DNA from: Haliclystus octoradiatus
Taxonomy: Eukaryota > Cnidaria > Staurozoa > Stauromedusae > Haliclystidae
Length of the DNA stretch: 64,000 bases
NCBI GenBank assembly: GCA_916610825.1
Contig: OU744449.1
Coordinates: 9,196,243-9,260,242 of the forward strand
Reading direction: 5' to 3'
This document shows, piece by piece, positions 1,332 to 63,572 of this stretch (positions are counted from its first letter, which is position 1; every line of letters starts with the position of its first letter). The position numbers and the translations under genes were made by a program. The notes under the pieces are model-generated. The model was not told the origin of the DNA and made no database searches. It saw only the letters and a program-made list of their open reading frames with translations.

Positions 1332-4300
1332 ATGGCATTAAATGAAGGTGGGTTAAGACCACCTGGACCTTTTGAAGCAAATAATAATCAAGACTTAAGC
1401 AAAAGCTGGAACGACTGGGAAGAAGGTTTTGAGTTTTACCTTATTGCTACCAATAAAAAGAAGCAACCTGAAGAAACAAAGGTAGCAATATTACTGACCT
1501 TACTGGGACAAAATGGAAGAACAATTTACAGAGGATTACAACTAGAGGATAGAAACAATTTGAAAGAAGTTTTAAAAGGATTTAGAACATATTACAACCC
1601 TAAACGAAATGACAGTTTTGAGAGCTATAAATTCTTTTCTAGAAAACAAGCATCAGATGAAGCTTTTGATACTTTTCTTACTGATCTCAGAAATCAGTTA
1701 AAATACTGTAACTATCCAGGGATACAATCAGATGATGGCGCAATGCTAGAAGACAGACTTCTTCGAGACCAAATAGTCTTAGGGATTTATTCGGACAGCA
1801 TCAGGGAACAATTATTATACACTGACGACTTAAGTCTGGAAAAAGCAATCCAGATTTGCCGTCACAAGGAGAGTGCAGTAAAAATTGGTAGTCAGATTAA
1901 TAACCAAGCTTCATCTGTCGACAGAATTTCTGCCACAAGCAACTCATCTAAAGTTAAGACAAGAAAGGAGAGGAGACAAATAACGAATTGCAAATATTGT
2001 GGCGGTGAACATTTACAAGGTAGTTGTCCGGCTTATGGAAGAAAATGCCATAGTTGTGATAAACTCAACCATTTTGCTACAGTTTGCAGAAGTAAATCAA
2101 GCAGTGACCAAAATAATCCAGAATCAATACACACTATAAACAGTCAAGTTAAAGAAATTGATCATCGTTTTGTTCTCCAGGTAAACAAAGCAGGACAGAA
2201 AAAAGAATGGATTATAAAATTGGGTTTAGAAAATGATAAATCATTCATAGCCAAAGTAGACACAGGAGCTGGATGCAATATTATGCCATCAGAAATTCAC
2301 AAAAGATTACTTCCGAAACAAACTCTTGAAAAATGCAATACAGTATTAGAAGCATACGGTGGTACCAAGCTTAAAGTTATTGGCAAAAGTAACATTTTGG
2401 TCCTGTATCAAGCAAAGTATCATCTACTAGAATTTATTATTGTCCTCAATGGCACAGCCACTTTATTGGGCTACCCATCATTAAGATCTCTAAATATTGT
2501 ACCACAACCAGAGCAAATACTTACAGTAAATCAACCTAATCATGAGATCGCAAAACGTTATGAGTCTGTTTTCGTTGGAAATGGCAAACTACCAGGTGTG
2601 CACAACATTAAATTACGAGACAATCATACACCAACTATCCATGCTGCACGCCGTGTACCATTTAGACTAAAAGACCAATTGAAACAAACACTAGATACTA
2701 TGGAAAATGATAAAATGATAACTAGAGTCACAACCCCCACAGAATGGGTCAATCCAATAGTCGTTGTTACCAAACCCAATGGCTCACTCAGAATCTGTCT
2801 GGATCCATTGTCGTTGAATCAAGCCATTAAAAGAGAACATTATCAAGTACCGACAGCTGAAGAAATATTTAGCAAAATTCATGGCTCAACCATATTTTCT
2901 ACGCTCGACGCAATGAGTGGTTTCATGTAAGTAGCACTTGATAAAGAAAGCAGTTTTGTTACAACATTTGGGACACCGTTTGGCAGGTATCGATTTCTTA
3001 GGCTTCCATTTGGGATCTGTTCGGCACCAGAGGTTTTCCACAGAATTGTAGCAGAACATTTTCAAGACTTGCCAGGTGTAGAAATATACATTGATGACAT
3101 TTTAATACATGGCAAAGATCAGGAAGAACATGACCGACGCCTGATTGCTGTTCTAGACAGGTGCAAGAAGTTGAATTTAAAACTAAACAGAAACAAATGC
3201 AATTTCAGTCAAACCAAAACCAAATACCTTGGACAAATTATAAGCGCAGAGGGCGTTTCACTAGATCCAGACAGAGTAAAAGCTATATGCAACATGCCAC
3301 AACCAGAAAATAAGGAAGATTTACGCCGCTTACTAGGCATGGTAACATACATTGCAAAATTCTGCCCGAATTTATCGCAACACACTGGAACACTAAGAGA
3401 CCTTTTGAAAGATCAAGTTGCCTTTACGTGGGATGAAAACCACACAAAATCATTCAAACAAATAAAGAGTTTAATTATCTCAGCACCAACTCTAAAATTA
3501 TTCAATGTGGATGCTCATGTTACTGTATCTGTTGACGCATCTAGCCATGGGCTAGGGGCAGTCCTTCTGCAAGATGGTCAGCCAATTGAATACGCTTCTT
3601 GCTCGCTAGATAAAACACAAAGAAATTATGCACAAATTGAGAAGGAAATGCTAGCAATTCAATTTGGATTAACACGATTCCATCAATTTGTCTATGGTCA
3701 AGCTACTACGGTAATCACCGATCATAAACCATTACTGGGAATAATGGCAAAACCAATATCTGATATATCACCAAGATTGGCTAGGATGCGCCTCAAATGC
3801 TTACGATATCATTTCACTCTTTGTTTTGAACCTGGGATCAATCTTGTACTGGCTGACACAATGTCGAGAGCTCCGCTATCTATCGAATGTGCCGACTACT
3901 CAGATTCAGAGATTATTCGCATATGTGACGTTATTGTACCGGAAAAAAAGATTGATACGTCCGAGGTAACAAAGAAGGATCCTACCCTTCAAGCGGTTAT
4001 TCTCTATTTACAGAATGGTTGGCCAGAGAAGAAAGCCCTACTACCAAATGCAGTAAAGCCATTCTGGGGTGAAAGAAACAATTTATCGTATTATGATGGC
4101 ATACTATTCAGAAATAGTCAAATAGTCATCCCTACATCACTGATATCGTCTACACTACAAGAGATTCATCATGGTCATTTTGGTATATCCAAGTGTATCG
4201 AACGTGCTAAGTCTGCCGTATATTGGCCAGGATACGTAGCCCAAATAACAGATTTAGTTTCGTCATGTGGTATATGCCAACAACATAGGAACTCTAATGC

Positions 4301-5255
4301 AAAAGATAACTTTATTACATACCCAATACCAGAGTATCCATTTCAAACAGTGTCAACTGATTTGTTTGAGATTAACAGCATACACTACTTATTAACCGTT
4401 GATTTATATTCAAAATGGACCACTGTTACACGGTTAAATCAAACAAAGTCTTTCGATGTAATAACGGAATTTAAAAAAATATTCGCAAGTTATGGCATAC
4501 CAGAAAAGCTCATCAGTGACAACGGACCACAATACGGCAGCCAAGAAATGAGGGATTATGCATTGGCAAATAACATAACACAAATAACATCAAGCCCAAT
4601 CTATCCGCAATCTAATGGATCTGCGGAGCGACATGTGCAGAACACAAAAATACACTTTATCAAGATGAAGGAGGAAGGGAAAGATCTGCAAGAAACTCTC
4701 ACAGCTCTTCGCAGCACTCCACTTGGGGATGGTTTGCCCTCACCAGCTGTTCTACTACAAGGAAGAAACTTGCGAACTGGATTACATAGCATAACACACC
4801 ATCTCAAACCACAATTCTGGAAGTCAACTGATGTCCGCCGAATACTTGCTACTAGGCAAGGCTCTGCCGCTTGGTATTATCAGAACTCAGCTGCCCATAG
4901 AAGTGTCCTCTGGCCTGGCCAGGCAGTGCGTCATAGGCAAGGAAAATTATGGCTACCAGCAAACATTATCAAACATGCAGATGCACCCAATTCATACATT
5001 ATTGAAACAGCAACAGGTCAAATATTACGACGTACAAGAAGTCACCTTCTTGTAGATTCAGAGAAGTATAATGGTGATAAGCCGGAAATATATTTTCACA
5101 CACCACAACCAAACAACCAATTCCAAGAAGAATCAAATCTTAGAACTATACCAGTTCAACCCAATAATGTTACAGATCACCAGCCTGACATGGAGCTTGA
5201 GAATAGAAAATCTGATCGCACAATCACGAAACCAAGCAGATACCTACAGTCTTAA
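1332..5255 (+). CDS. Gag-pol polyprotein of Gypsy element 1 (single in-frame stop)
   Basis: A single gag-pol frame starting at ATG 1332. The N-terminal Gag-like part is followed by two Cys-His zinc knuckles (about 1985-2100: CX2CX3HX4C and CX2CX4HX4C). An aspartic protease with DTGAG is near 2259. RT follows, with the catalytic YIDD at 3087-3098. RNase H has an Asp-Ala-Ser motif near 3532 and TDHKPL near 3718. Integrase has an HHCC zinc domain (about 4165-4290) and catalytic Asp, Asp, Glu in a TDLFE-type motif (near 4357), SDNGPQY (near 4514) and the SAERH region (near 4619). A TAA at 2928-2930 breaks the frame inside RT just after the LDAMSGF motif. The frame is otherwise open to the TAA at 5253-5255, so the copy is probably not autonomous unless the stop is bypassed. 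Confidence 0.9.
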
Positions 5256-11018: not shown

Positions 11019-12530
11019 ATGTTCGCTAAAATTCTTAGGAACTCTTTCTCTGGTGTTCTTACATCTCCTGATGTGATTTTCTATAAACAAATGACTGAAA
11101 TAGCTATTGAACGAGAATTGTGCATGTCCACTGTATATACCCCATCCCACAAAACAGTTTTTGAGTATAAAAACAACATTTCAAAATTATTTTTATTGAA
11201 ACTAACTGGAATACTTTATCTAGTGTAGATAAATACTCTGGTATGATTTTAAGTAAAATATTATCAATTGACTGAAATACCTATTGAACGGGAATTGTGC
11301 ATGTCCACTGTATATACCCCATCCCACAAAACAGTTTTTGAGTGTAAAAAGAACATTTCACAAAATTATTTTTATTGAAACTAACTGGAATACTTTATCT
11401 GGTGTAGATAAAGACTCTGGTATGATTTTTAAGTAAAATATTATCAATTGACTGAAATACCTATTGAACGAGAATTGTGCATGTCCACTGTATATACCCT
11501 ATCCCACAAAACAGTTTTTGAGTATAAAAACAACATTTGAAAATTATGTTTATTGAAACTCGCTGGAATACTTTATCTGATGTAGATAAATACTCTGGTA
11601 TGATTTTTAAGTAAAATATTATCAATTGACTGAAATACCTATTGACCGAGAATTGTGCATATCCACTGTATATACCTTATCCCATAAAACAGTTTTTGAG
11701 TATAAAAAGAACATTTGAAAATTATTTTTATTGAAACTAACTGGAATACTTTATCTGGTGTAGATAAATACTCTGGTATGATTTTTAAGTAAAATATTAT
11801 CAATTGACTGAAATACCTATTGAACGAGAATTGTGCATGTCCACTGTATATACCCCATCCCACAAAACAGTTTTTGAGTATAAAAGCAACATTTGAAAAT
11901 TATTCTTATTGAAACTCGCTGGAATACTTTATCTAGTGTAGATAAATACTCTGGTATGATTTTTAAGTAAATTATTATCAATTGACTGAAATACCTATTG
12001 AACGGGAATTGTGCATGTCCACTGTATATACCCCATCCCACAAAACAGTTTTTGAGTATAAAAGCAACATTTGAAAATTATTTTTATTGAAACTCGCTGG
12101 AATACTTTATCTGATGTAGATAAATACTCTGGTATGATTTTTAAGTAAAATATTATCAATTGACTGAAATACCTATTGACCGAGAATTGTGCATATCCAC
12201 TGTATATACCCTATCCCACAAAACAGTTTTTGAGTATAAAAAGAACATTTGAAAATTATTTTTATTGAAACTAACTGGAATACTTTATCTGGTGTAGATA
12301 AATACTCTGGTATGATTTTTAAGTAAAATATTATCAATTGACTGAAATACCTATTGAACGAGAATTGTGCATATCCACTGTATATACCCTATCCCACAAA
12401 ACAGTTTTTGAGTATAAAAAGAACATTTGAAAATTATTTTTATTGAAACTCGCTGGAATACTTTATCTGGTGTAGATAAATACTCTGGAGTGATTTTGAA
12501 GAAAAATGTTGACAATTGATCAAAATACCC
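11019..12530 (+). repeat. 178-bp tandem satellite, about 8 units
   Basis: The motif GACTGAAAT recurs at 11093, 11270, 11450, 11628, 11806, 11984, 12162 and 12340, with spacings of 177, 180, 178, 178, 178, 178 and 178 bp. A decayed junction follows near 12518. Units are about 90-97% alike by eye. Variants repeat every third unit (11628 with 12162; 11450 with 11984), hinting at a ~534-bp higher-order unit. Minus-strand frames of 74 codons are products of the repeat, not genes. I found no hammerhead core in the unit. Confidence 0.95.
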
Positions 12531-12599
12531 ATTGAAGAAGAATGTTGTATTTCCACTGTATTTCCTATAGCAAATAAAATATACAAAATAATTGATACT

Positions 12600-16247: not shown

Positions 16248-19200
16248 ATGGCAGGAAAGGCGACAGGAATGCAAGTTCAGAAAGAAGTCGGATCTAGATT
16301 TGAAGAAAACTTTATTGAAAATAAAAAAATCACACACAATTCAACTGCTGAAGATGTTCAACAGATTTATGATAATTGGGCAGCAACTTACGACCAGGTT
16401 TGTGTCAGAATCGACAATTCAACACATTTTCGAATTTTGTTTTATTTGATAATAAAATGTAGAATTGTATGCTCCTTTTAATCTTAAATTCGTTTTCTGA
16501 TCAAAACGAGTATATCTCATTTCATTTGTTAAAATACATTGGCGACACATAAAAATAAAATGACAGGCCTACCAACAATAAAGCTCAAAAGCTGTGTAAG
16601 CAAGCAGTGGAATTATTTCAATCACTCTATAGATTTATTTATCAGAATCTTCTTGGTGATAATTTTGGTACAAAATAACAACACAACTAAGTTTGCACAA
16701 TGTTTCGACTGATTAACTTCAGCCATTCTCAAGTGAATGTTTTTTTATTAATAATTAAGATATATATATTCACCTATATATTCATATATATATATTATAA
16801 TTTTTTCACCATATTTATAACTCATCTTGACTTAGGTGTATTCTGAAGTCAGTTCCTGGTTCGCTCACTGAGCAGTACTGATGAAGGCTAATGGCCAGAA
16901 ACATGTACTTGTCTGCTGCTATATATATATATCAATTTTTTAGTATCACCGTCTGAAGATCGCAATAAAAGCGTGAAACTCCGAGTTACGGAAAAGGCTT
17001 TGCCTCGTCTCTGTTTTATACTCTATATTATGCTCTGTCCTAAAAAACATTGAGCACTTTCATATACATGTGTGTATAAGAGTTCACACTCAATACAATT
17101 AATTTTTAATTAATTATTATTGTATATATATTTATGTTTATCTAATAGCAGATAATATAGGGCTCTATGTCTTCATTTGACAGAGCGGTAAATAATAATA
17201 ATATATGGCGAAAGAGTCAAAGAATACACATTATTTACTGTCATTTCTGTCATTGTCATACTGTCTGTCATTTCTTCACAGTAAAGAATGTGTATTCTTT
17301 GACTCTTTCGCCATATATTATTATTATATATATAAATTGTTTGTCCCTTGAGGGTGAAGTTACATCATAAAGAATATTTACAATATGATATCGATATCAG
17401 TGACAACAGTAACTATGCTAACTAGCTTAGATATATTTCTAATCCTTAGAGGAAATGCTGTATCATGAAATGCATGCAATTATTTGAAAACTTTGGCTCG
17501 GATGGAATCGCCTTGGACGTTTAATGTTGGTTTCAATTCTTGAATTGCCAGCATTTCATTCACGAGACAATCGAATCTATTTTTGCACTGTTTTATAATT
17601 TTAAAATGTTTTTAAATATATCAATAGATATGCCGTTCTTTTGACCGACGTGTATACCAAGGTTACGTTTGTTATGTTCATCCTTGCGTTCATATAGGTG
17701 CCGGCTTGTATAGCCGACATAGTCTGCTTCACACAGACCACATTTAAAATGAAATATGACGCATTGTTGGGTTAACAAATCTGGCTTCTCCTCACGGGTA
17801 CGCAAGTCGTCGTTGAACTTCTTACTTTTAAAAATAGCTTTAAAATTTACACTCATTTTACAATTTAAACGGTAAAGTTCTTTCCCTGTTTCATCGCATG
17901 ATTGTTGATCTTTAAACGGTAAAACTATACTTAAATATTTTATATTATTGTCTGGTAAAACTGGAGAATTAAAATCATTACTTAGCATTTTATGCAAAAT
18001 AGAATTAAAAACACGGAGCGGATACTTAAATTTACTAAAAATGTTAAAAAGTACTTTACATTCAATGTTAAAATCAGCTTCAGAGGAACAAAGACGATGC
18101 GCTCTGTGAAGTATTGTCTTTAATATACCAGTTTTATATCTTGTGTCTGCGTGACTCTGATAATGTAAAAGAAGTCCTTTGTTTGTTGATTTTCGATGGA
18201 CACTCGTTGATATTTCTGTGCCGGTATTAGTCATTTTGATTCCAAGAAAAGGTAGTTGTTTACTTTCCTCTAACTCAATCGTAAAGTTTATCGACGAGTG
18301 TGCTGCATTCAGAATCGATAATGAGTTTTCTGCTTCTTTCATATTTTTTACAATTGCCAAGGTGTCATCCACATAGCGCCAATAGAATTCCGGTAATTTA
18401 TTAGGTTCTGATAAAAAAATTTCAATATTGCACATAAAAACATTAGCTAATAAAGGTCCCAATGGGGATCCCATTGCCACTGCATTTGATTGTTCATACA
18501 GCTCACCATTGAATTGAAACAACTGATCCTTGGTACTGATCAATAATAGCTCACGCAGATCGTCAGGCGTTAAATTCAAGGTATACTTTTCATTGAACCA
18601 ATTGTTAGAAAATGCATCCGTTATGCATGCACTCGTTAATGCATGGACTCCTCACCAAAAGAGGTTATGAAAAATTTTACAGCTTATAAAAATTAAAAAT
18701 AAAGCAATATACCAGCCAGCAAAGACTACTAATGGCTGCAAAGCGGAGTGTAAAACTACTACATGTATACAGAAATGACAGTAATACAGAATTGTTCAAA
18801 AAAAGACAAAGACTTATTACAAATCACATTTACGAAGAACAGCATTCGTCACAAAAAAAGCGGATAAAAGATACAGTAAATTTGTTAGAAATAGGAGAAA
18901 ATGAAATGAAAGAAGAAAGATTCTGGGAGTTTCCTATAGCCATGGCTGATACCAACGGTAGAAAGCAAGAAGACAAATTTCAAATTCTAAAAATATTTCA
19001 AAGCTTTTATAAGAAACTCTTCAACAGAACAGAACCAACAACAGAAAGAGCGAAAGAAAATGAATTGAAAATAAATAAGAAATTAATGGATATAGAAATA
19101 GAAGGAAAAAGTCAGGAAAAGCTAGAATACTCTGCAGAGGATATCAAAAACACAGTTAAAAACTCAAACATAATAAAGCAGCCGACAGCGAAGGGCGGAA

Positions 19201-35710: not shown

Positions 35711-36647
35711 TAAAGTGTATATCCCGGTGGAGGTTTGCATCTTTAGATAGAGAAAAATTGTCTATTCGTACATGATCTTCTTGTATTTTTACTTAGCGCG
35801 ATCATTTCTCCTTCAAAAATGCAGTCAAAGTGACGATTTTGGGTTAATTTTGTGTCTCAATCTTTTTCCTCCAACATGAACCCGTTTATTTTCAACAAGA
35901 GAGTTTACACCGGAAAAAACACTAAACATTTTACTTATTTATCTCTAAATAAAAAATCGCTATACCAAACGACAATCTGCTTTCGGAATGAAGTTTTCAA
36001 CGTTCAGCTGAAGATGTAGAGATATATTTGATCAATATTCAAGATCCAGGTAAAGAGATATAAGTTTCTAAAGTCAAAAGTTCTTAGTTTTGTGTTTTTC
36101 TCACTCGAGGTGCTCACTCGATTAACACCTCTTTACGACTTCGTCTAAGCATAGTCGGCATAGTTGATGTGTATTAAAAATAGTCACACACCTTCAATAA
36201 CCAGCAGTGATAACCTGCTTAGACGAAGTCGTAAAGAGGTGTTAATCGCGTGAGCACTTGACTGGGAAAATCCAAAACTAAAAACTTTTGACTTTAGAGG
36301 CTTATTATAGCTTTTTCTGGATCCCGTACATTGATCAAATATAGCTCAAAATCTTGATCTGAACGTTGAAAACACCATTCCGAAAGCAGATTGTCATTTG
36401 GTTTGGCGGTTTTTCATTTAGAGACAAATAAGTAAAATGTTTAGTGTTTTTTCCGGTGTAAACTTTCTTGTGTAAAAGAAGCGGAATCCTGTTCGAGGAA
36501 AAGAATTAGACACAAAATCGTCACTTTGATTGCATTTTTGAGGGGGAAATGCTTGCGCAAAGTAAAAATACAAGAAGATCATATACGCATAGAAAATTTT
36601 TCCCTATCTAAAGAAGCAATCTCCTAAAATCCGGGATATACACCTTA
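35711..36647. mobile_element. ~940-bp foldback (long palindrome)
   Basis: Arms about 35711-36150 and 36217-36647 are imperfect inverted copies over their full length, from GTGTATATCCCGG / CCGGGATATACAC at the tips to TAACACCTCTTTACGACTTC / GAAGTCGTAAAGAGGTGTTA near the centre. The loop is ~66 nt. No open frame of note. No clear target duplication. Confidence 0.9.
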
Positions 36648-37034: not shown

Positions 37035-39815
37035 ATGGCAGAGTTAAAAAGTATACCAATCAGATTACCACCACCATATCTAGAACATCCAACAGATGAA
37101 AGACCAAACTGGGAACGTTGGCTACGACAAGTCGAGGACTACATCGCAATATATAACCACGGTTTGTCAGAAAACAAGCAACTAACTGGAGATGTTCAAA
37201 ATCAATTTTTTAGAAGTTTGCTAGGTACCGAAGGTATGCGATTGGCAGAAGGCAATTCAACCTTATCAAATATACAAGGACAGAGTTTTGATTCTATAAA
37301 GAAAGCAGCAGCATCTATATTCGAAGAAAAAGGCTGTGAAATTCGATCAGCAACAGAATTATTCACACGAAAGCAACACAAATCAGAAACTATTGCTGAA
37401 TTTGTTTCAGAACTTAGAAATTTCTGTCGAAAATAAAGTTGGAAGAAAAAGAGGACTATGTGTTAGCAGCAGGAGTTCATTCAAAATCTACACAAACAAG
37501 ACTTCTACGGGAAACCAAAATTGAATTGGAGTCCTTTTTAAATATATCGCAATCTGAAGAAGCGGCACGTAAAGAACAAGTAAAACTACAAGCCACAAAT
37601 ACAAATCACGCAAGCAATATACAAGCGGTAAAGCAAACAAAGAAGGTATTCGCATCCAAAACAAAGAACAATCAATCACAGAAACAATCGACTACAACAG
37701 AAAATTGTTGGTTTTGTGGCTACAAACGTCACGAAAACGGCCGAAATGATTGCCCAGCCAAAGAGGCAATATGCAATAGCTGTGGATCAACAGGACATTT
37801 TGCCAAAGTCTGCAAAAAATCAAACAAGAATGATAAAAAGGTAAGTATCATCAAATTCACCGAAACTACAAAGGAGTCATCTACTACACAGCAAGAATCA
37901 GCCATTGATGATGTCTCTCAGACGGTAAACAACATTTATTCATGGAATACTACAATGGAAATTCACCATGGCAATAAATCAACGCAAATCACAGCTATGA
38001 TCGACACTGGTGCATGTGCTACAATAATCAGCCATGACATCTACTGCAAATTCCTGCAAGATCAGATACCATTGCAAAAACCAAAAGCCAATCTACTCAA
38101 TTATGATGGTACACCGATCATTGGTATAAAAGGAATAATAAATTGTCCAATTACTATTGCAGGACATAAAAACAACATTGACATTTACATAATTGACAAT
38201 AAGCAACATTCAATTATTGGCCAAAATGCCATTCGAGCATTAGGTCTTTGTCTAGACGGAAAGACCGGCACTATAAACTCAATCAAAGACTCAGAAAAAT
38301 TTCTAAAGCCATTCTTAAATTTACAAAAGACTGAAATTGGTAAATTTCCTGAGTACAGACATACTATTCTTCTAAGAGACAATTACAAACCAAATGCAAA
38401 CAAATTAAGAACAATTCCACTGGCTAAAGAAGAATTAGTAAAGCAAGAAATCAACAACATGGTAAAAACAGGGATATGGGAGAAAATCGACAAATCAGAA
38501 TGGGCACATTGTATAGTTCCTGTCTGGAAGCCTGACGGATCTGTAAGAATAACTGCAGATTTAACAAGTCTAATGAACAAATCATCCCAACACGCCATCC
38601 TTTACCTAACATGAGCGATTTATGTCATAAATTAAAAGATTCTACTCACTTCACAAAGCTAGACTTATCTAAAGCATATTATCACATCGAGTTAGCCGAA
38701 GAAAGTCGTCCACTCACTGCATCTATCACACCACTTGGCTTATATCAATACAAACGTTTGCCTATGGGGTTAAAAGATGCAGCATCAGCATTCCAAGCAT
38801 GTGTTGAAAGAGCTTTGGCAAATATTCCAGGTTGTGTATCTTATATTGACGACATTCTAATCTATGCAAAGAATATTCAAGAGCATGATAACATTTTACA
38901 TCAAGTATTAAAAGCACTTAACGATAACGATTTCAGACTCAATCCAAAGAAGTGCATCTTTAATCAGCAATCTATTTCATTTCTTGGACGTCGGATCTCC
39001 AACAACAGCATTCAACCAGATCCAGAACGCTATACTGCAATTTCAAACATGCCTGATCCTGAAAATAAAAAACAATTACAATCATTTTTGGGTGTAGTGA
39101 ACTACTTTAGAGAATATATACCAAACGCTGCTACTAGACTAGAATCTCTTTACAAATTACTACGCAAAGATGTCAAATGGGTATGGACAGATGATCAACA
39201 AACTGCTACTAATGATATTAGAAAAGCTCTATCTTCAATGGTTAGTCTTCGTTTATTCGACCCGTATGCAGCTACAATACTCACTACAGATGCATCCGAC
39301 ATTGGTCTTGGTGCAGTTCTCACACAAATTCAAAATTCAAAAGAAGTACCAATTGCATTTGCTTCTCATGCTCTTAGCACTAGTGAACGAAATTATGCTA
39401 CTAATGAGAGGGAAGCACTAGGAGTATTATGGGCATGTGAACATTTTGAAAAATATTTACTTGGGTGTAAATTTACATTACAATCTGATCATCAGCCACT
39501 CAAGACATTACTGATGCCATCAAACAAACGAAAATCATCAAAATTCATTCGATGGTCTGAGCGTCTACAGTGTTTTAACTATACGTTTCAATACAAGCCT
39601 GGCAAGGAAAATCCTGCAGATGGTTTTTCAAGACTACCAACAACAAAAATATCGGACGCTACCATAGCAACTACGTCATATTCAGCTACATCAATCGACA
39701 TTATGTACATCACAGAAGGTATCAGTCTCGAAGACATTGCAGCCAGCGCCAAAAACGATGACAGCTATCAAGTTATCTCAAACTACCAGTGTTGTAAATA
39801 CTCGTTACTAAAGTA
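37035..39815 (+). pseudogene. Gag, protease, RT and RNase H of Gypsy element 2 (two frameshifts)
   Basis: Gag runs from ATG 37035 to a stop at 37434-37436 and resumes in another frame from about 37439. Zinc knuckles lie at about 37708-37815 (CWFCGYKRH...C and CNSCGSTGHFAKVC). A protease with IDTGA is near 38000. RT starts near 38390, shifts frame near 38600, then has LDLSKAYYHIEL, LPMGLKDA and catalytic YIDD near 38842. RNase H follows with TTDASDIGLGAVL near 39287 and SDHQPL near 39485. The frame is truncated at the nested insertion. Confidence 0.9.
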
Positions 39816-40610
39816 ACGCGTTACTCGTTACTCGTTACTTTTGGAGTAATTTTAGGAGTAATTAGTTACTTTTTTGAGAAAAGTAATAAGTAATCTAATT
39901 GATTACTTTTTGAAGTAACGAGTATTATTTGAGAGAAAGTAATTGACGTTACTTTTCAAATTACTTTTATGATTAAAAAATATTTGCTTTGTTGTCTTGT
40001 GATAATTTTCAAAGGTGCTGCTGTCACTAACTTCCGCTTTTTATTGTTCTGTCTGCGATGTAATCTCACATTATTTGCAGCTTTCACGAGAGATTGCTGA
40101 TGATGAAGAGATTACTGTTGATGAATAGATTCCATAGTTTTTTACTTTTTATTTGAGTGAGTTTCGAATATTGAAAAGATGATGTAAAATTTATGGCTAT
40201 ATGAATAAATTGATAAGACAAAAATAAACCATTTTGATAAATCAAATGAAACCATTTATTTGTCAACTTTATTAAAAAGTTTTCAACGTCAATTTATGTT
40301 CTGCTGAAGTCACCAGTATTAAATTAATATTATCAAATCGATCGTTCCCCCTTCGTAAAAGAACAAGATGGCCGCCATGATTGTCAAAACGAGACATGTC
40401 TTTATCGAAAGGGAGGCAATATCTTTTTTTTCACAAGTTAAAGTAATCATGAAGTAATTAGTAATTAATTACTTTTTTTGGTAAAGTAATTAGTAATTGT
40501 AATCAATTACTTTTTAGGCTGAAGTAATTAGTAATGTAATTAGTTACTTTTGAGGAAAAGTAATTTGTAATGTAATTTATTACTTATCAAAAGTAATTCT
40601 CACATCACTG
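39787..40610. mobile_element. 824-bp non-autonomous hAT-type element nested in Gypsy 2
   Basis: Ends CAGTGTTGTAAATACTC and (inverted) CAGTGATGTGAGAATTAC, flanked by a perfect 8-bp duplication CAAACTAC at 39779-39786 and 40611-40618. The sub-terminal regions are made of many GTAATTAGTTACTTTT-like repeats in both orientations. The 8-bp duplication and CAGTG tips fit the hAT superfamily. No transposase. Confidence 0.93.
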
Positions 40611-41890
40611 CAAACTACATTACTACACAATGGCCTTCACTACGCCAGATAAAAGATAATCCATTCTCATCAAGTCTACATCGTATACGAGACGAGTTAG
40701 ATGTACGCACTCAACACGGCACAAACATCATCCTACGTGATAATAAAGTAGTAATACCATCATCACTCCAAAGACAAATTCTTAGTCTAGCACACACTGT
40801 TCATCCTGGCATCGTCCGTTTGAAACAGAAATTACGATCAACATACTGGTGGCCTGGCATGGACAAAGATGCAGAAACATACGTCAAGCACTGTGATGGA
40901 TGTCAAGGAACATCAAAAAGCCTCCCAAAACGAAACATTACAGCCGACAAAAAGGTACCTCCACCAGTCACGCCTTGGACAAAACTAGCAATTGACATTA
41001 CTGGTCCATTCTTCGTAGCACCGAAATCTGAGCAATACATCATAGCTCTAATTGACTACACCACTAAATATGTAAGTCTACTACCAACAACAAACATTAA
41101 TAGCAACACAGTTATAAATTGGTTGGATGAGACATTTTCAATCTTTGGTCTACCACAAGACTTGGTAAGCGATAACGGACCGCAGTTTATTTCAGATGTT
41201 TTTGAACATTATCTGCAATCGCATGACATATGTCATATTCATACAATACCGTACCATCCAGAGAGCAACGGGTTAGTTGAGAGATTCGATAGATATTTAA
41301 AGAACGGCATTCAAGCATTTACACGAGCCAAGAAACCTTGGAAAGAAGGAATCCGCTCACTTTTGATCAATTATTTAGCTACGCCTAACGGCAATGACGG
41401 AAAATCACCTGGCCAACGACAGTTTAATCGTAATTTTCGTGCACCACATGAAGTCATTGTTAACAGAAGCTCAACACTTACATCATCAACTACATCTACT
41501 CAAAAGCATAATACAAGCATTACCGATGATTCTACAAACAACTATACTACTCCGACATCATCAAATTCAAATAAGAAATCATACACAAAAGGACAACAAG
41601 TACTTACCAGAATATTCAATCCACGAACGGGAATGTCTCCTTGGTCAAAAAAACCAGTCATCGTTCAACAATATGTTGGTAATCATTGTTATGACATTAG
41701 AACAAAAAACTTTGGAATTATTCGTCGGCATGCACGAGACATTCGACCTTACTATTCACCACCAGAGGAACATATTATTTACCCTACTGTACAGCCTGAA
41801 GCCAATGAAGCAAAACAAAAAAGACCAACTCGAGCTTCTAGAAACAACATACCATCTCATTTAAAGGACTTTATTGTATATCATAAATAG
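40611..41890 (+). pseudogene. Integrase region of Gypsy element 2
   Basis: The pol frame resumes after the nested element and is open to TAG at 41888-41890. An HHCC zinc domain (HTVHPG...CDGCQ) spans about 40793-40905. Catalytic Asp, Asp, Glu lie in LAIDITGPF (near 40988), VSDNGPQF (near 41167) and NGLVERF (near 41270). A basic C-terminal tail follows. The piece itself looks undamaged, but the nested element cuts it off from RT. Confidence 0.92.
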
Positions 41891-43439: not shown

Positions 43440-46230
43440 ATGGGAGAAGTAGTGGTATCGATTTTAGATGAATATTTGGAAGATAAAGAATTAGGATGTG
43501 ATACCTCTGACACAGAAATTCAAAGCCTGTATGATCGATGGGCAGAAACATACGAGAAGGTATACACGTATATTTGAATTATGTACCATAACCTGACCGT
43601 TCATGATCGTTTGGTCGATGTCTAACAGCTGTGTCATGTCTGCTCAGGCTAGAGTCTCGTGAACAATTCAGTCGCAAGCATTGCATGCTTTAATATTGAA
43701 GAATTCAATACATACATGCGGATGCGGCTTTGGCTGAAATATCCACGTATTATTGAAATTTCATGAAGATGATGGATTGATGGTATTTGCGATAAAAAAC
43801 ACACATCAGAAAGGTCTCTGATGAGTTCCTTGGCAGGAACAAAACACGTGTCAGGCCAGCCTCATAAAAAAAACACATTTGATTTAATCTAAAATTTGAG
43901 TTGAAAAGTTACATGAATATTTATATAAAATCTAATTTTAATTTGTCATTAATAAATTCTTATTTATTAAATTTGAGATAAATGACAGCGATAAAAGAGA
44001 CATGATTGGCAATATTTCGTTATCTTCATAATAATATCGTCACTCGTCAGGCAAGAGAGTGATAAAAGAAATTTACAAAATATATAGTGAATCTAAATAC
44101 ACTGTAAAATTACAACAAAAGAGTGCTAATAATTAAACAAAGTGTTCATCACAAAGCTACTGATAGCGGTCTACTATTACATTATCAGAGTCATGTAGAT
44201 TCTAGCTATAAAAAGGCATTATTGATTACCATTCTTGATCGTACTAATCTGCTCTCATCAACCGATAAAAACTTTGATTAAGAATGTATTATAATACGTA
44301 GTAGATTTCTAGCTTTAAAATATCCAAGTCAATTGATTGAATTTTATATCAACAAATTTAAAAAGCAGCGTGTTGAAGGTACACTTGATCTGCCAGTCGC
44401 AAGCAGGAGTAAAAATGATATCAACATAACTTTACCCTCTAAGGACCAAATTTCAACAAATACATTAAGAAAACAGCTGTCAAATTTAAGTGGTAATATC
44501 GGCCAAGCTGTAAGACCGATTTTTTATACTAAAAAACTTGTCGATGATTTGCGATTACGTGAGCCTAAGCCATCGCTCTTGTCTCGTCCATGCGTTGTCT
44601 ATTGTTTTCAATGTGACTTGTGTGATGCAAGTTACGTGGGAAGTTACGTTGGCTTCACCATTCCAACACTTTGTCGATTGAATTTATTGCAACGATATTA
44701 TACTTGTTAACAATGGCAAACAATGATTGCAGGAGAGGTATTTTAGCACAAGAACTAATTACCTTGCCTAAGGATGATTTCGAAAAAAATTTAGATTAAG
44801 ATTAAATCGAAACTGTTGCATCAATTATTGTGTGTTTCTTATTGCATATAATACCATCATTGGAATCATATCAAGCAAGTTAACCTTTACAAAGACATTT
44901 GTGAAATTTAAGCTCAAAATATTGATTTATCATTTGTAAGGGATAAACTATCTGAAGTTTTGCATTTCAAAATATAAACCTGGACCATATTTTTGTTGTG
45001 GCACGGAGTTGCATGTCCGGTGGTAGCTTCCATTGCGCTTCAACGGGGTTGTTCAAATAGAATTTTGGGAGGATGGCCATAATAATGTTTCAGATCATGA
45101 AAAAGATCCCCAAATATTTTTTAAAGAACATGTTACACTAAAAAAAAACACAGAAAACAGAACCTTGTTATGAAAAAAATTGTTAATGATAAAAATGTAT
45201 ATTGTTTTAAAAAATGTTTCGGCACCTCCAATTAAGGACGGAATAATGTTATGCCATCTTTCCAACAGGATCTCTCAAATCATGGCTACGTGGGGTCAAA
45301 ATCTTCCGCAGAATACTTCACAAAATACATTGATAAGTATTCACTTGGACGTGATCTTTGTATATTGGAGGTTGGCTGTGGCCCAGGGATGGTTGGTGCT
45401 GAATTAAATGCAAGAGGATTCACAAATATAGATGGCCTGGATTTATCTCGAGAAATGTTGAACATAGCCGCAATTAAAAAGGTTTATGGAAAGTTAATTC
45501 AATGTAAAATTGGCGATGGTAATGTGGTAAATATAGAAGACAATAAGTATGATGCTATTACGTGTGTTGGAAGTTTCATTCCTGGTCATATCAAAGCAGA
45601 TGCCCTCAATGAATTTGTACGATTGGTGAGAAAAGGTAATGCAAGATTCTTAAATTGTATAGAAAAAATAAAAATGGTCACGTACAATACCTGTCATGAG
45701 CGACCAGTAATCATATCAATTAAACCATCGTTGAAACAGGTAAGTTCCACATGAATGTTAAGCTATATAAAGCTGTTTCGTGGATCTGGTGCACGTTATA
45801 TGCTGTTTTAAACATCGAACAAGGATCAAATTAAATCCTACAGCTTTTAGCAGATTATATATACTACTACATGCCTGTATAACGAATCCTCTGGAATATA
45901 TAAATTCACAGTAATAATTTGTTGGAATGCCTAATTAACGGTTCTCTCTTCACGGTGAAGTAACATTGATTGAACAATTTAGTTAATTCGTTTTCAATTC
46001 TATAATTATGATTTTTAGGTGGTATCCTTCATTTCAGTATGAGGCTGTCAGCACTTCATCTAACTGAAGATGGGTACAATTACACTGAAATAATCAATGA
46101 TCTCGTTTCCAACGGATCGATAGAAATTATTGCCAAAGATGAGGCTGAATATTATAATGGTAAAAGTATCATTTCAAAAGATGAAGATTATAGAAACTGC
46201 TGTTTATATACATGTCTTGTGACGAAATAA
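43440..46230 (+). CDS. METTL27-like: METTL27-like methyltransferase, copy B (3 exons, 232 aa)
   Basis: Same family and layout as copy A. Exons are 43440-43559 (donor GTATAC), 45269-45635 (acceptor CAACAG, donor GTAATG) and 46019-46230 (acceptor TTTTAG, stop TAA). Phases 0 and 1 are kept and the joined frame is 232 aa. Exon 1 ends with SLYDRWAETYEK. Exon 2 has the SAM-binding motif ILEVGCGPGMVGAEL, the acidic motif GLDLSREML and YDAITCVGSF. Exon 3 starts GGILHFSMR and ends LYTCLVTK. The start was chosen as the first ATG in frame; the ATG at 43435 runs into a stop. Intron 1 holds a Penelope relic; intron 2 (383 bp) is compact and shows the ancestral state of the copy C intron. Substrate unknown. 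Confidence 0.88.
44138..44840 (+). pseudogene. Second Penelope-like relic (GIY-YIG end) in intron 1 of copy B
   Basis: The plus strand encodes GLLLHYQSHVDSSYKKALL near 44169, matching the same region of the Penelope element at 17484. After a stop it continues through KKLVDDLRLREPKPSLLSR to CDLCDASYVGS...YVGFTIPTLCR, a GIY-YIG start with a small internal duplication (AGTTACGT twice near 44630), and ends at 44708-44710. A hammerhead-like remnant (CTAAGGATGATTT ... AAATCGAAAC, about 44769-44814) follows, with one change in the core. Confidence 0.8.
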
Positions 46231-59095: not shown

Positions 59096-61087
59096 CTAAT
59101 TTGCAATAGATTCTTCCTTAATTTTAGTAGTATCTAAAGGTGCATTTTGATTAATGCTATCATCTAATTTGTTATCTATTAAAGTGTTATTGTTTTCAGA
59201 TCCTACAGTAGAAACATTATCTTGCGTAGATGTATTACATAAATCTATCTTACTATCATCTTTCATATTTTCATTTGAATCTATCTTCTTTTTATTATCA
59301 ATATCAACAATTTCTGTTGCAGTCGTTGCAGAAACAGTTGTAACAGTCTCTGATTTAGTCGCTGAAGTCTCTGATTTAGTAATTGATGACGTAATAGTTT
59401 CTATGTTCTTACGATACAGTCTCAATTTATACTTGGGATGGTGAAAGTTTTTCAGCGTATGATGCGCTTTGTCACTAGATTTAAATGTGACTAATACGAT
59501 TGGTAGGAAATTGTTAGTAGATGGTAAAACATCAGCATCAGAGATTGGAGATTCTTGTGTGGTGTGGTTGATCTTTGAGATTTGACCACCTAACTCTCCA
59601 AGGCTACTCGTAAGCTCATCGATTTCATCGATTGTGACATCTTGTGAAAAATCGTATGCTTCAAGAACATGACCTAGAATTGAAAGTATGAAATATAGAC
59701 AATAAACACTTTGCAGTCTATAGCCACACAAGAACAACTACAGAACTAGATATATAGTGTGGTATCATTCGTGAAAACAATCTTAATCTAGATTTTATAC
59801 ATTTTATACATATCAATCAATAGCATCTCTTGAAATATAAACATTTTCAAAGGCAACAAAGTTATACGTATCAAATTAAAAATGTTGAAGAATAGATAAA
59901 GTTAATGACAGTTTAGTTGGATTGTTTACGTATTAAGATGAGAAGTAAGATAGTATTAGAACCTTTGTAAACTCTTCAAAACGCAAGTTTGAGTTGCACT
60001 ATACGTTAGTTCTTGTTACCTTGAATTACTGTCAATAACTTTATCCTACCTATAAAATTTATAAGATCTTATAATCATGACCTATCATGTTATTGTTCTT
60101 CCATTTCGTTCTACTTTCACTCTAACGATATCTTTTACTCGAAATATATTCATATTACGAAAAGAGAGTCTAGCCTCACTTCTCATGGTCATGAAACATT
60201 TCTATGGTCATTTTGCTAAAGTTCTATTTGAGCAACTCCGTTGAAGCGCAGTGGAATGTACCCTCCGGATACTTAAGTCGATGAACTGCAATTCAGTTAA
60301 TCAAATATTATGACTTGAGTTAAAGTTTTTTTTTACCCATATGATAACATTTGATTTGTTTCATTACATTTAAGCCAAGCAGTTTCAAATCAATTGTGTT
60401 AAGCTACATAGGAGTATGAGACATACCGTGATCTTTGTCTTTTCGTCCGTGACCATGTGTTGTATTATATCTTGGATTACCTTTCCGTGATTTTGATTTA
60501 CGATGAGGAGGAAATACTGGAAATAAAGGATTAGCCAAAGGGAGACCAGCTGGGTGATAAGCAGCAACTACATGGCGATATCCTTGATACATCTGACTAT
60601 TAAAAGGTCTGTTGAAATAAATGTCATCGGAAATACTATTTTATTAGCAGACAAAATAATTCAAATTTCAAAAATATTCTGAAATCAGGGAGATCCTTAT
60701 CAATTGAAATTAGCTGAAAAGTTTGTATCACTGACATGCTGTTATGAATACGATGTTGTAATCGCCGTCCAAAGAAATATCAGTTAAGAGAGCTCCTGCG
60801 AAAAACAGTTCAGGAGTTCATGAACGTTAAATGCATACATACATAAATACATACATTCATACATACATACATGTCTACATACATTCATACATACATACAT
60901 ACATACATACATACATACATACATACATACATACATAAATACATACATACATACATACATACATACATACATACATACATACATACATACATACATACAT
61001 ACATACATACATACATACATACATACAGACATACATACATACATACATACAGACATACAGACATACATACATACATACATACATACA

Positions 61088-61119
<32 letters not shown>

Positions 61120-63572
61120 CATACATACATACATACATACATACATACATACATACATACATACATACATACATACATAAATACATACATACATACATAC
61201 ATACATACATACATACATACATACATACATACATACATACATACATACATACATACATACATACATACATACATACATACATACATACATGCATACATAC
61301 ATACATACATACAATTTATGTCAATTATTGTTTTGTTATTGATTTGATATATTTTGAAAATTTAATAGACAATTTAGATTATTTAAGATATCAATAGTCA
61401 ATTTTGTTCTGCGGCTTTTACAAATTGTATACATGATGATATTTGTTGGCAGTGTAAAATATGATATCGATCATTTGCTGAATCACCACACTCTTTACAT
61501 AGGCAATTTTCGTCAGGATCATGAAAAATACTATTTGTACAGATAAGATGGTGAAAGCATACATACATACATACACCAAAACAAACAAAAAGGCATCATT
61601 AAAACCAATTCATGAACTGTCTCACCTTCTTCCGATTGGGTATGTTGGTCCAGGGTGTTGTACAGGCATAACTGCAATATAAGGACGTGGCTGTGTCCCA
61701 GTCATGTTGTATGGAAGGATTCCTGAGCCTTGCATACCACCATATCCAGGGTGCATTGCTTGCTGATAATGATGATAAGGTATTGCTTCACGTTGACGTA
61801 GGAATTGAAACATTTGAGCTTCTTGCGGTGATTTGGGTGGGATCTGACCTAAATGAGGACCAGTGCTAAATTGAAAATTGGATGAATTGACTGCTAAAGG
61901 AGATGTACCCCCACCAGGAGAAAGGTTCAAAGCACCAGGTGCGACTTGTTGCGTTTGTAGCATACGAGGAGGTGATGTAGCTTGTTGAGGTGGTGGTGTG
62001 TTTTGTATGGGTAGAGTAGGCCCAGGAGAAGGTGAAGAAGCACCATATGTTGGGCTTAGTACAAGTGGTGATGACGGTCTTTGTTGTGGTAATGCAGTAG
62101 CAGAGGCAGCATAAGGATACCTAGGCATTGCTGAAGATGGATCGACTTGAACAAATGATGTGCCGTATGGTGTTTGTACCATGTGACCAAGAACAGCACC
62201 TTGCGGAGTCATCTGATATGAAGGTTGGATGTTTCTAGTAAACGGTTGTCCGGCACTGGGAGATTGTTGTAAAACTATGTAAGAAGTTGGTTGTTGTTGT
62301 TCTTGTTGGATGGGATAAGATGAGAGGATACTTGGTTGTAATTGAATTGGTTGCGAATAATGTCGTTGGGGTTGGTCTTGTTGTTGCTGCTGTATAGATT
62401 GGAACCCAGTAAGTTGCTGTTGTTGTTGTTGCTGCCTTTGGGTTTCTTGGTATTGTACTGCGCCCTGAGTTTGAGCTGTTGATTCGTCAACACTATCATT
62501 TGGATTAGAAGTAACACTTATAGCTGATAGCTGATTAGTTACATCTTGGACTTGAGGAGTTGGTAATATTGACACTGGACTTTGGATATCCTATAGAAAT
62601 ATATGACATCACATTAACTTGTTTACATTGCAAAATATCAATTGAAGCTCATTCTTATTCCCGTTTGCTGCATGTTTAGCTAATATATATTCATTGTAAT
62701 TATCTAGAATCTTTTTAATTTAAAGTGTGGTACTGTATTTTGGTCCCCCTTGTTCTAGAAGTGCGCATGTACGCAACAAGCATGCAGCTGCAATGTTTTC
62801 CATAATTTAAGCCCTAGGTATTAGTATTAGAACCATTCAAAGTATACCTAAAAACTGGAAATTGTTTTCTGGAACAAATATAGTTTAACAAAATCATGAA
62901 TTATAGTACTGCTTTTGCGAATACATGAAGATATAGAAAGTATCCAAAAAATATCTATAGTATGTATAGTAAGGTGGCTAAAAACAAACATTTGAAAATC
63001 AGGAATATAATGATCAATCAGGAATGGATCCCAACTGGTGTCAAATGGTCTACAATCATTTTGTTCAAAATTGTATTGCAATATTAGCACAACGCCAAAG
63101 GGTAGCGCATTTCAATTTAAATATATATCATAGAGGGGGGGGGGATTATTCAAGTTATTTACCAAATTGCGCTGCATTCCATTTACATTGTATTATAGTT
63201 ATAGGGTTCTATTCTAAAGGCAAATCATTTATACCTGTGCTATAGGCATTTGGCCTTGTTGATAAAAGACAACTGGTGATAGAGACGCATCTGTGGGTTG
63301 ATAATGAACTTGCCCACTATTTGTAACTTCACCATACTGTTGGGAATCGAGTTGTTGTTGTTGTTGCTGCTGTTGTAGTTGTAAATCTTGCTGCGTTCTC
63401 TGATTGGTTGGTGATTGGACAATAGAAGGTGAAACAACTGTCTCTTCTGATTGTAATGATGCAGATACTTGGCTGCTCTGTCTGGTTGATTGTTGTTGCT
63501 GCTGTACAAGATGGGTTGGTTGCATTTGAGGCTGTTGTTGCTGCGGCCCAGGATAACTCATCATATAAACAT
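59096..63572 (-). CDS. Q/P-rich protein, 3' part of gene (4 exons seen), possibly R3H-domain family
   Basis: Minus-strand exons join in frame: 63572-63235, 62590-61626, 60608-60427 and 59673-59096 (stop TAG). All have AG acceptors and GT donors, with phases 0, 2 and 1 between them, giving about 686 codons. The first two exons are rich in Gln and Pro with several poly-Gln runs. The third is basic (HRKSKSRKGNPRYN). The last begins HVLEAYDFSQDVTIDEIDEL and continues to VLVTFKSSDKAHHTLKNF, a pattern like a divergent RRM-type fold, then a Ser/Thr-rich tail. A long Q/P-rich region in a putative RNA-binding protein recalls the R3HDM1/2-ARPP21-Encore family, but the R3H domain would be outside the window, so the name is not given. 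It is the convergent neighbour of copy C. Confidence 0.75.
60836..61315 (+). repeat. (CATA)n microsatellite, ~480 bp
   Basis: Nearly pure ACAT/CATA repeat with scattered single changes (CAGA, AAAT, a TATACA slip near 61118), in the intron between 61626 and 60608 of the Q/P-rich gene. Long Met-Tyr-Val-Cys or Thr-Tyr-Ile-His frames on both strands come from the repeat. A short outlier lies at 61557-61575. Confidence 0.97.
61396..61545 (-). pseudogene. LINE C-terminal fragment beside the CATA microsatellite
   Basis: The minus strand encodes FHDPDENCLCKECGDSANDR followed by YHILHCQQ and a stop, the CX2C...HX3-4C signature at the C-terminus of many LINE proteins. The microsatellite starts ~80 bp 3' of the stop, where a LINE tail would be. 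Confidence 0.65.

Follow-up and report, generated by a model that had tools for sequence, protein, structure and literature searches.

Two hammerhead ribozyme-like motifs stand in tandem, close to a Penelope-like element (PLE), in the genome of the staurozoan Haliclystus octoradiatus. Are they the two halves of one dimeric ribozyme, or the traces of two different elements? The window analysed here is the whole stretch of 64,000 nucleotides from contig OU744449.1 (C5 below; positions 9,196,243 to 9,260,242 of the forward strand), most likely a part of chromosome 4, and the motifs are called motif 1 and motif 2 in their 5' to 3' order. The mitochondrial COX1 of this genome carries AGA/AGG in several places that normally hold Arg, and has in-frame TGA, as would fit a cnidarian code. 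We conclude, with a probability of about 80%, that they mark two neighbouring insertions of two hammerhead retroelements, a short retrozyme-like repeat and a PLE, copied from ribozyme-cut RNA templates by target priming with a PLE enzyme.

Both motifs were recovered by a descriptor of the type I hammerhead with its CUGANGA and GAAA boxes, three stems, a permitted base at the cleavage site (H17) and an open stem I, at the positions and with the features that an earlier sequence-only reading had claimed for them. In motif 1, stem I pairs 16871-16877 with 16914-16920 (7 bp, one U-G), the boxes are CUGAUGA (16878-16884) and GAAA (16898-16901), stem III has 3 bp, and H17 is C 16913, with the predicted cut before 16914. 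Motif 2 has its stem I at 16949-16952/16988-16991, its boxes CUGAAGA at 16953-16959 and GAAA at 16975-16978, a stem III of 3 bp and U 16987 as H17, with the predicted cut before 16988. In both, the 3 bp of stem II follow a mismatch at the base of the stem, A-A in motif 1 and U-U in motif 2, as the same reading had seen. A standard pair is absent at this place in 9 of 13 hammerhead variants of the PLE, and judged from these variants the mismatch is a family trait of PLE-kind hammerheads. The descriptor found no further complete motif on either strand of the 64 kb, while among 400 windows simulated with a first-order Markov model 395 contained no motif, five contained one and none contained two. 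Because the Rfam models and the monomer folds were negative (see below), the case for hammerheads rests on descriptor, family and comparative evidence; by sequence both motifs fit the type I hammerhead, and they may cleave themselves, for which the 5' ends of insertions at the predicted cut are an indirect sign.

The core of motif 1 has 772 matches genome-wide with at most two mismatches (393 forward, 379 reverse), compared with 0 for a reversed-pattern control. It belongs to a non-coding unit of 261 bp that often stands in tandem with one hammerhead per unit, up to the seven hammerheads spaced 261 bp in the identical units of locus L093, the most among the arrays seen. Metazoan retrozymes are recognised by non-coding units of 150-450 bp that stand in tandem and have a hammerhead each, and the sequence of the repeat places it in the retrozyme kind; a canonical hammerhead with loop-loop contacts is a further mark of theirs, whereas motif 1 shows a 3-bp stem II above its A-A mismatch. 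The 5'-truncated copy in the window is identical to the L093 unit at 122 of 129 aligned positions. Counting the first base after the predicted cut as +1, the 3' ends of 32 of 41 insertions were found at +8, +9 or +13 (the last where TA repeats prolong the alignment); the sample comprised 42 distinct insertions, one of which runs off its locus. An exact TACTTGTCTGCTGCTA end followed by seven A/T occurs at 233 places genome-wide, and most 3' ends fall in an A/T-rich tract directly before a bulged hairpin.

The 5' ends of the retrozyme copies spread over the unit. Four of the 41 fall precisely on +1 (P about 2e-5 for a uniform spread), and no other single position has more than two. Genome-wide, a search pattern that excludes C directly before +1 gave 20 matches, 16 of them true ends, mostly in A/T repeats; the other four are three tandem junctions with a mutated base and one apparent deletion. 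Three control positions that likewise follow C yielded 9 matches with 1-2 ends, 9 matches with 2-3 ends and 15 matches with 3 ends. True ends were judged by eye, and the pattern demands an exact match, hence these counts are partial tallies. In the fetched loci, the +1 word occurs in 12 contexts, of which five are 5' ends (one of them uncertain by a single base); near the control words the counts are at most 2 of 17, 1 of 18 and 1 of 20. Three of the 16 copies that start at +1 were fetched and measure 268, 268 and 269 nt, about 8 nt more than one unit. Such copies are simply explained if the template began at the upstream cut and the hammerhead towards its 3' side stayed uncut.

The ends at +1 could instead mark a transcription start or a microhomology preference, with no ribozyme cut involved. 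The flank of most of the 16 places closes with an A just ahead of the first T, leaving one base ambiguous, and the terminal repeats of PLEs (pLTRs) are thought to hold promoters (PMC3846280). However, the three control positions, which also follow C and start with T, show just 1-3 ends, and a third hammerhead family in the window starts exactly at its own predicted cut in both of its arms. We consider this explanation unlikely.

Less likely still is an ordinary satellite, spread by amplification at the DNA level, in which the hammerhead would be a relic without a role in spread. Divergence between units is 0.05% within arrays (23 pairs from five arrays, 15 of the pairs from L093), whereas the first units of 12 arrays differ by 2.95% (66 pairs). 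Near-identical units of this kind fit one circular or multimeric template, and they fit local duplication or homogenisation as well. Yet the repeat is dispersed on both strands, its preferred 3' end at A/T repeats, its 5' truncation and two candidate target-site duplications (L051, L052) look like retrotransposition, and a satellite leaves the copies that start at the predicted cut unexplained.

The core of motif 2 has 153 genome-wide matches with at most two mismatches, and its reversed-pattern control has 0. It leads to a PLE whose tandem units with pLTRs are spaced by 2,519 bp both in locus L089 and at C5:8388097-8393163, and in which the ribozyme lies in the 5' pLTR, upstream of the open reading frame (ORF) and sense to it. 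The pLTR in the window is identical to that of L089 at 190 of 196 aligned positions; by this alignment, motif 2 is part of a solo 5' pLTR of that PLE. The sequence-only reading had linked both motifs to the adjacent Penelope frame on the minus strand (17593-18579) and had offered a second element as one reason for their antisense orientation. The Penelope link stands in so far as motif 2 lies in the pLTR of a PLE. As judged from its family boundary at window position ~17325, the adjacent frame is a further, separate PLE family to which neither motif belongs. The second element proved to be the right explanation of the orientation, as motif 2 is sense to the ORF of another PLE.

The L089 ORF matches the reverse transcriptase (RT) profile of PADLOC (E = 6.5e-6, residues 91-253) and, weakly, that of NCBIfam (E 0.007). 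The Pfam RVT_1/RT family was not found in this ORF or in five pieces of its relatives, sequence and profile searches of the ORF against PDB gave no match, and the protein had no match in phages. Profile A4 met the window ORF 17593-18579 only weakly (E 0.065), and in the fold comparison most matches were unrelated folds of similar Z; only I-TevI was used. The motif 2 PLE encodes an RT and, as a candidate, a probable GIY-YIG endonuclease. Its copies have alternative 3' ends at about +44 or +140. Many of its solo pLTRs start a short way upstream of the hammerhead, between about -41 and -57 (L002, L059, L062, L064, L074, L076, L081, L083, L085, L087, L090 and the window), in a sample chosen for the presence of the hammerhead; transcription may start there, or the RT may stop.

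Comparative evidence supports the hammerhead structure of the PLE kind. Among the 13 PLE variants, both partners have changed in 6 of 11 pairs, which lie in stems I and II. The covariation score was reached by 0 of 500 shuffles and the number of both-sided pairs by 2 of 500, and slid structures were paired to at most 45%. The variants were collected from loci with a descriptor that demands pairing, which biases the paired percentage and, to a lesser degree, the compensatory changes. A covariance model (R1) was built from the 13 hammerheads with the motif 2 sequence included, and its match at 16947-16993 holds by construction.

Homodimer action has been reported for PLE hammerheads (reviewed in PMC7761336). 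Cofolding gave -31.6 kcal/mol for a motif 1 pair, compared with -24.4 for two monomers, and -20.4 kcal/mol for a motif 2 pair, compared with -12.0, so that same-motif pairs gain about 7-8 kcal/mol. The mixed pair (-18.2 kcal/mol) equals the sum of its monomers. The motif 2 homodimer minimum is essentially a hammerhead dimer in which stem III is extended and each strand has one additional core pair (pure hammerhead dimer, -18.0), and homodimer action of motif 2 appears plausible in this model, which does not support a dimer of motif 1 with motif 2. The tandem dimer of one element suggested by the sequence-only reading is not borne out, as motif 1 belongs to the 261-bp retrozyme and motif 2 to a PLE pLTR. 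That the two motifs are one functional unit, the dimeric hammerhead of a single element, is very improbable: they do share a strand, a distance of 75 bp separates their cores, both face the same way at one other place (L002), and on contig C1 motif 1 lies no more than 300 bp away at 2 of 17 places with motif 2, where 0.017 would be expected (zero-mismatch places), but the repeat families and their ends are separate, each motif occurs many times without the other, their orientations are opposite at C5:15979765, the mixed dimer has no predicted interaction energy, and both motifs sit in A/T repeats, where both families usually end, a shared preference that suffices to explain the co-location.

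A bulged stem-loop near the 3' ends may connect the two families. Downstream of the PLE hammerhead, many copies have the form GCUC-UGYC-loop-GRCA-UU/UC-GAGC-ACU. GAGCACT lies at +57..+80 in 17 of 30 PLE hammerhead variants (in at least one printed copy each), and among 95 distinct PLE copies 36 have the stem-loop and 52 end in A/T before it. The inner stem shows both-sided changes in two pairs, and 96.4% of its cells pair, compared with at most 54% when slid; its covariation score was reached by 2 of 500 shuffles and its number of both-sided pairs by 276 of 500, the outer stem having been part of the copy selection. The PLE stem-loop model (R2) also finds the stem-loop of the third family at 17155-17186 (E 6e-4), a sequence absent from the model. 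In the retrozyme, GAGCACU occurs twice, at +39 and +106, each time behind a hairpin with a UU bulge, and the usual 3' end falls just before the first of these. A descriptor of the bulged stem-loop, written after the sequence was seen, finds two in the retrozyme unit; among 20,000 simulated 300-mers, 28 contained a single one and not one contained two. The window holds GAGCACT six times on both strands, one of them in the motif 2 stem-loop itself. Because the PLE model misses the retrozyme hairpins at significance, a stem-loop common to the PLE and the retrozyme is a lead and no proof.

Several results weigh against two insertions from ribozyme-cut templates. The Rfam hammerhead models gave no match in the window at gathering scores and none up to E = 10, so the covariance search by which the sequence-only reading had proposed to check the motifs turned out negative, and the R1 search does not find motif 1. 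The minimum-energy monomer fold is not a hammerhead for either motif (z -0.78 for motif 1, 0.26 for motif 2); compared with this minimum, the hammerhead fold is less stable by 2.1 and 3.0 kcal/mol, respectively. In the motif 1 homodimer minimum, core bases 10-14 pair with 39-43 instead of forming a hammerhead, and the hammerhead dimer (-28.6) lies 3 kcal/mol higher. At its cut the motif 2 PLE shows hardly any excess of 5' ends, with six matches that comprise one clean-looking end, one inverted-repeat junction, one unclear case and three mutated hammerheads; the count for a related family was 5 of 11, without a control position. R2 reaches the retrozyme at best with E 0.08, which is not significant, and there with the wrong 5' strand in the stem instead of the expected pairing. 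Moreover, insertion in vitro did not require the ribozyme (Frangieh et al. 2024, PMC11167929), and no RNA-seq ends were seen at the hammerhead cut in Anolis (PMC11167929).

Two possible tests were rejected: R1 as an independent test of motif 1, which it does not match, and monomer folding as proof of a hammerhead, as the minimum folds differ for both motifs.

Insertion from ribozyme-cut RNA might proceed as follows. Multimeric transcripts of tandem units would be cut by the hammerhead, perhaps via dimers that extend stem III, and the PLE protein would nick an A/T microsatellite. Beyond a hammerhead that has stayed uncut, complementary DNA would be primed in an A/U-rich tract that lies downstream, at +8 for the retrozyme and at about +44 or +140 for the PLE; the priming site would adjoin a bulged stem-loop ending in GAGCACU. 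Synthesis would run 5'-ward, with truncated copies after an early stop and, after run-off at the upstream-cut 5' end, copies that start at +1 and hold one unit plus about 8 nt. The near-identical arrays may derive from one circular or multimeric template. Of this scheme, the repeats and their boundaries, the enrichment of ends, the stem-loop of the PLE and the homogeneity of arrays are observed; cleavage, the action of dimers, a helper role of the PLE and the circular template are inferred. PLEs have been proposed as helpers of retrozymes (Cervera and de la Pena 2020, PMC7229834). Somewhat short of even odds, we tentatively suggest that self-cutting of the hammerhead sets the 5' end of the re-copied RNA, with the upstream ribozyme cutting and the one beside the priming site staying uncut to give full-length copies, and that the common stem-loop lets PLE enzymes mobilise the retrozyme.

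The coordinates are collected in the table below.

Features of the two hammerhead insertions and their neighbours (window positions)
Feature	Position	Strand	Remarks
5'-truncated retrozyme monomer	16799..16921	+	unit positions 146-261 plus +1..+8; ends in (TA)n
Hammerhead motif 1	16871..16920	+	descriptor match; core common to the 261-bp family
TGCTGCTA, first 8 nt past the predicted cut	16914..16921	+	where retrozyme insertions usually have their 3' end
Solo pLTR fragment of the motif 2 PLE	16934..17127	+	positions -53 to +142 about its cut
Hammerhead motif 2	16949..16991	+	descriptor match; genome-wide core; PLE variants
Bulged stem-loop GCUC-UGUC..ACA-UU-GAGC-ACU of the motif 2 PLE	17032..17062	+	between the two alternative 3' ends; R2 match by construction
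Arm of a head-to-head insertion, third hammerhead PLE family	17130..17241	-	inverted repeat I1; lower limit approximate
Second arm, third PLE family	17278..17330	+	5' end 17278 coincides with the predicted cut
3' part of the neighbouring PLE	17325..18640	-	ORF 17593-18579, RVT_1; separate insertion; upper limit approximate

Downstream of motif 2, the third family, which also occurs with a hammerhead in locus L008, forms a head-to-head insertion. The minus arm has its 5' end (17241) exactly at the family's predicted cut and the longer 3' end, while the plus arm has the shorter 3' end, without the stem-loop. Among same-family head-to-head pairs in the loci, 19 of 23 have the stem-loop on exactly one arm, two have it on one arm with the other unclassified and two on neither arm; three pairs of unlike families are omitted from this count. 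A tail on one of two inverted pLTRs is known (PMC3846280), and both target strands are cut and extended by a PLE of Anolis (PMC11167929). Head-to-head spacers (about 2330-2377 in L005, 17242-17277 in the window) hold short, ACAG-like repeats of the first bases after the cut, as if the RT had slipped or made a jump on reaching the RNA 5' end.

Elsewhere in the window, a fragment at 44132-44641 is 40% identical to the neighbouring PLE protein and contains an in-frame stop, and two LTR (long terminal repeat)-retrotransposon-like gene sets with RT, RNase H and integrase domains lie at 3069-5255 and 37439-41890. A tandem array at 11088-12561 (178-bp unit, 8.3 copies, 94% matches) contains no R1 match, and a (CATA)n array of about 120 copies occupies 60834-61313. 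The long inverted repeat at 36023-36343 has a sub-threshold microRNA precursor family score on both strands and is probably a hairpin like those of miniature inverted-repeat transposable elements (MITEs).

Retrozyme and PLE hammerheads are already known, and the role of the minimal hammerheads in PLEs has been called a mystery (PMC7761336). The literature searched had no match for this family and host, for the 5'-end excess at the predicted cut or for the possible shared stem-loop, and we found no paper there that joins Staurozoa with a retrozyme or Haliclystus with a hammerhead. If the proposed role of self-cutting is true, hammerheads gain the retrotransposition role that they have lacked. 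The genome of H. octoradiatus contains matches by the hundred, with insertion ends that can serve as a record, and the 5'-end excess together with the possibly shared stem-loop makes the ribozyme role and the PLE-helper hypothesis directly testable.

With known hammerhead PLEs the motif 2 PLE shares tandem units, a pLTR with a minimal hammerhead, an RT ORF and A/T-rich targets, and its GIY-YIG domain is a probable candidate for a further common trait. Both also form head-to-head copies in which one side may carry a tail, but here the tail is about 100 nt long and has a conserved stem-loop, unlike that of the known elements. The Poseidon PLE of Anolis (PMC11167929) resembles the present system in its two internal RT start sites near a stem-loop, its AT-rich targets and the cutting and extension of both DNA strands; its stem-loop is AC-rich and lies inside the ORF, whereas the GCUC..GAGCACU form lies in the pLTR. 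The metazoan non-LTR retrozymes (PMC7229834) are likewise short tandem repeats (150-450 bp) without coding capacity that have a type I hammerhead and many copies, in genomes that also have PLEs. Motif 1 differs from them in having only 3 bp in stem II above the A-A and is nearer to the minimal kind which that paper ascribes to PLEs. New in the present description are the preference of the H. octoradiatus retrozyme for 3' ends at A/T repeats, its 5' ends at the predicted cut and its hairpins, which resemble that of the PLE.
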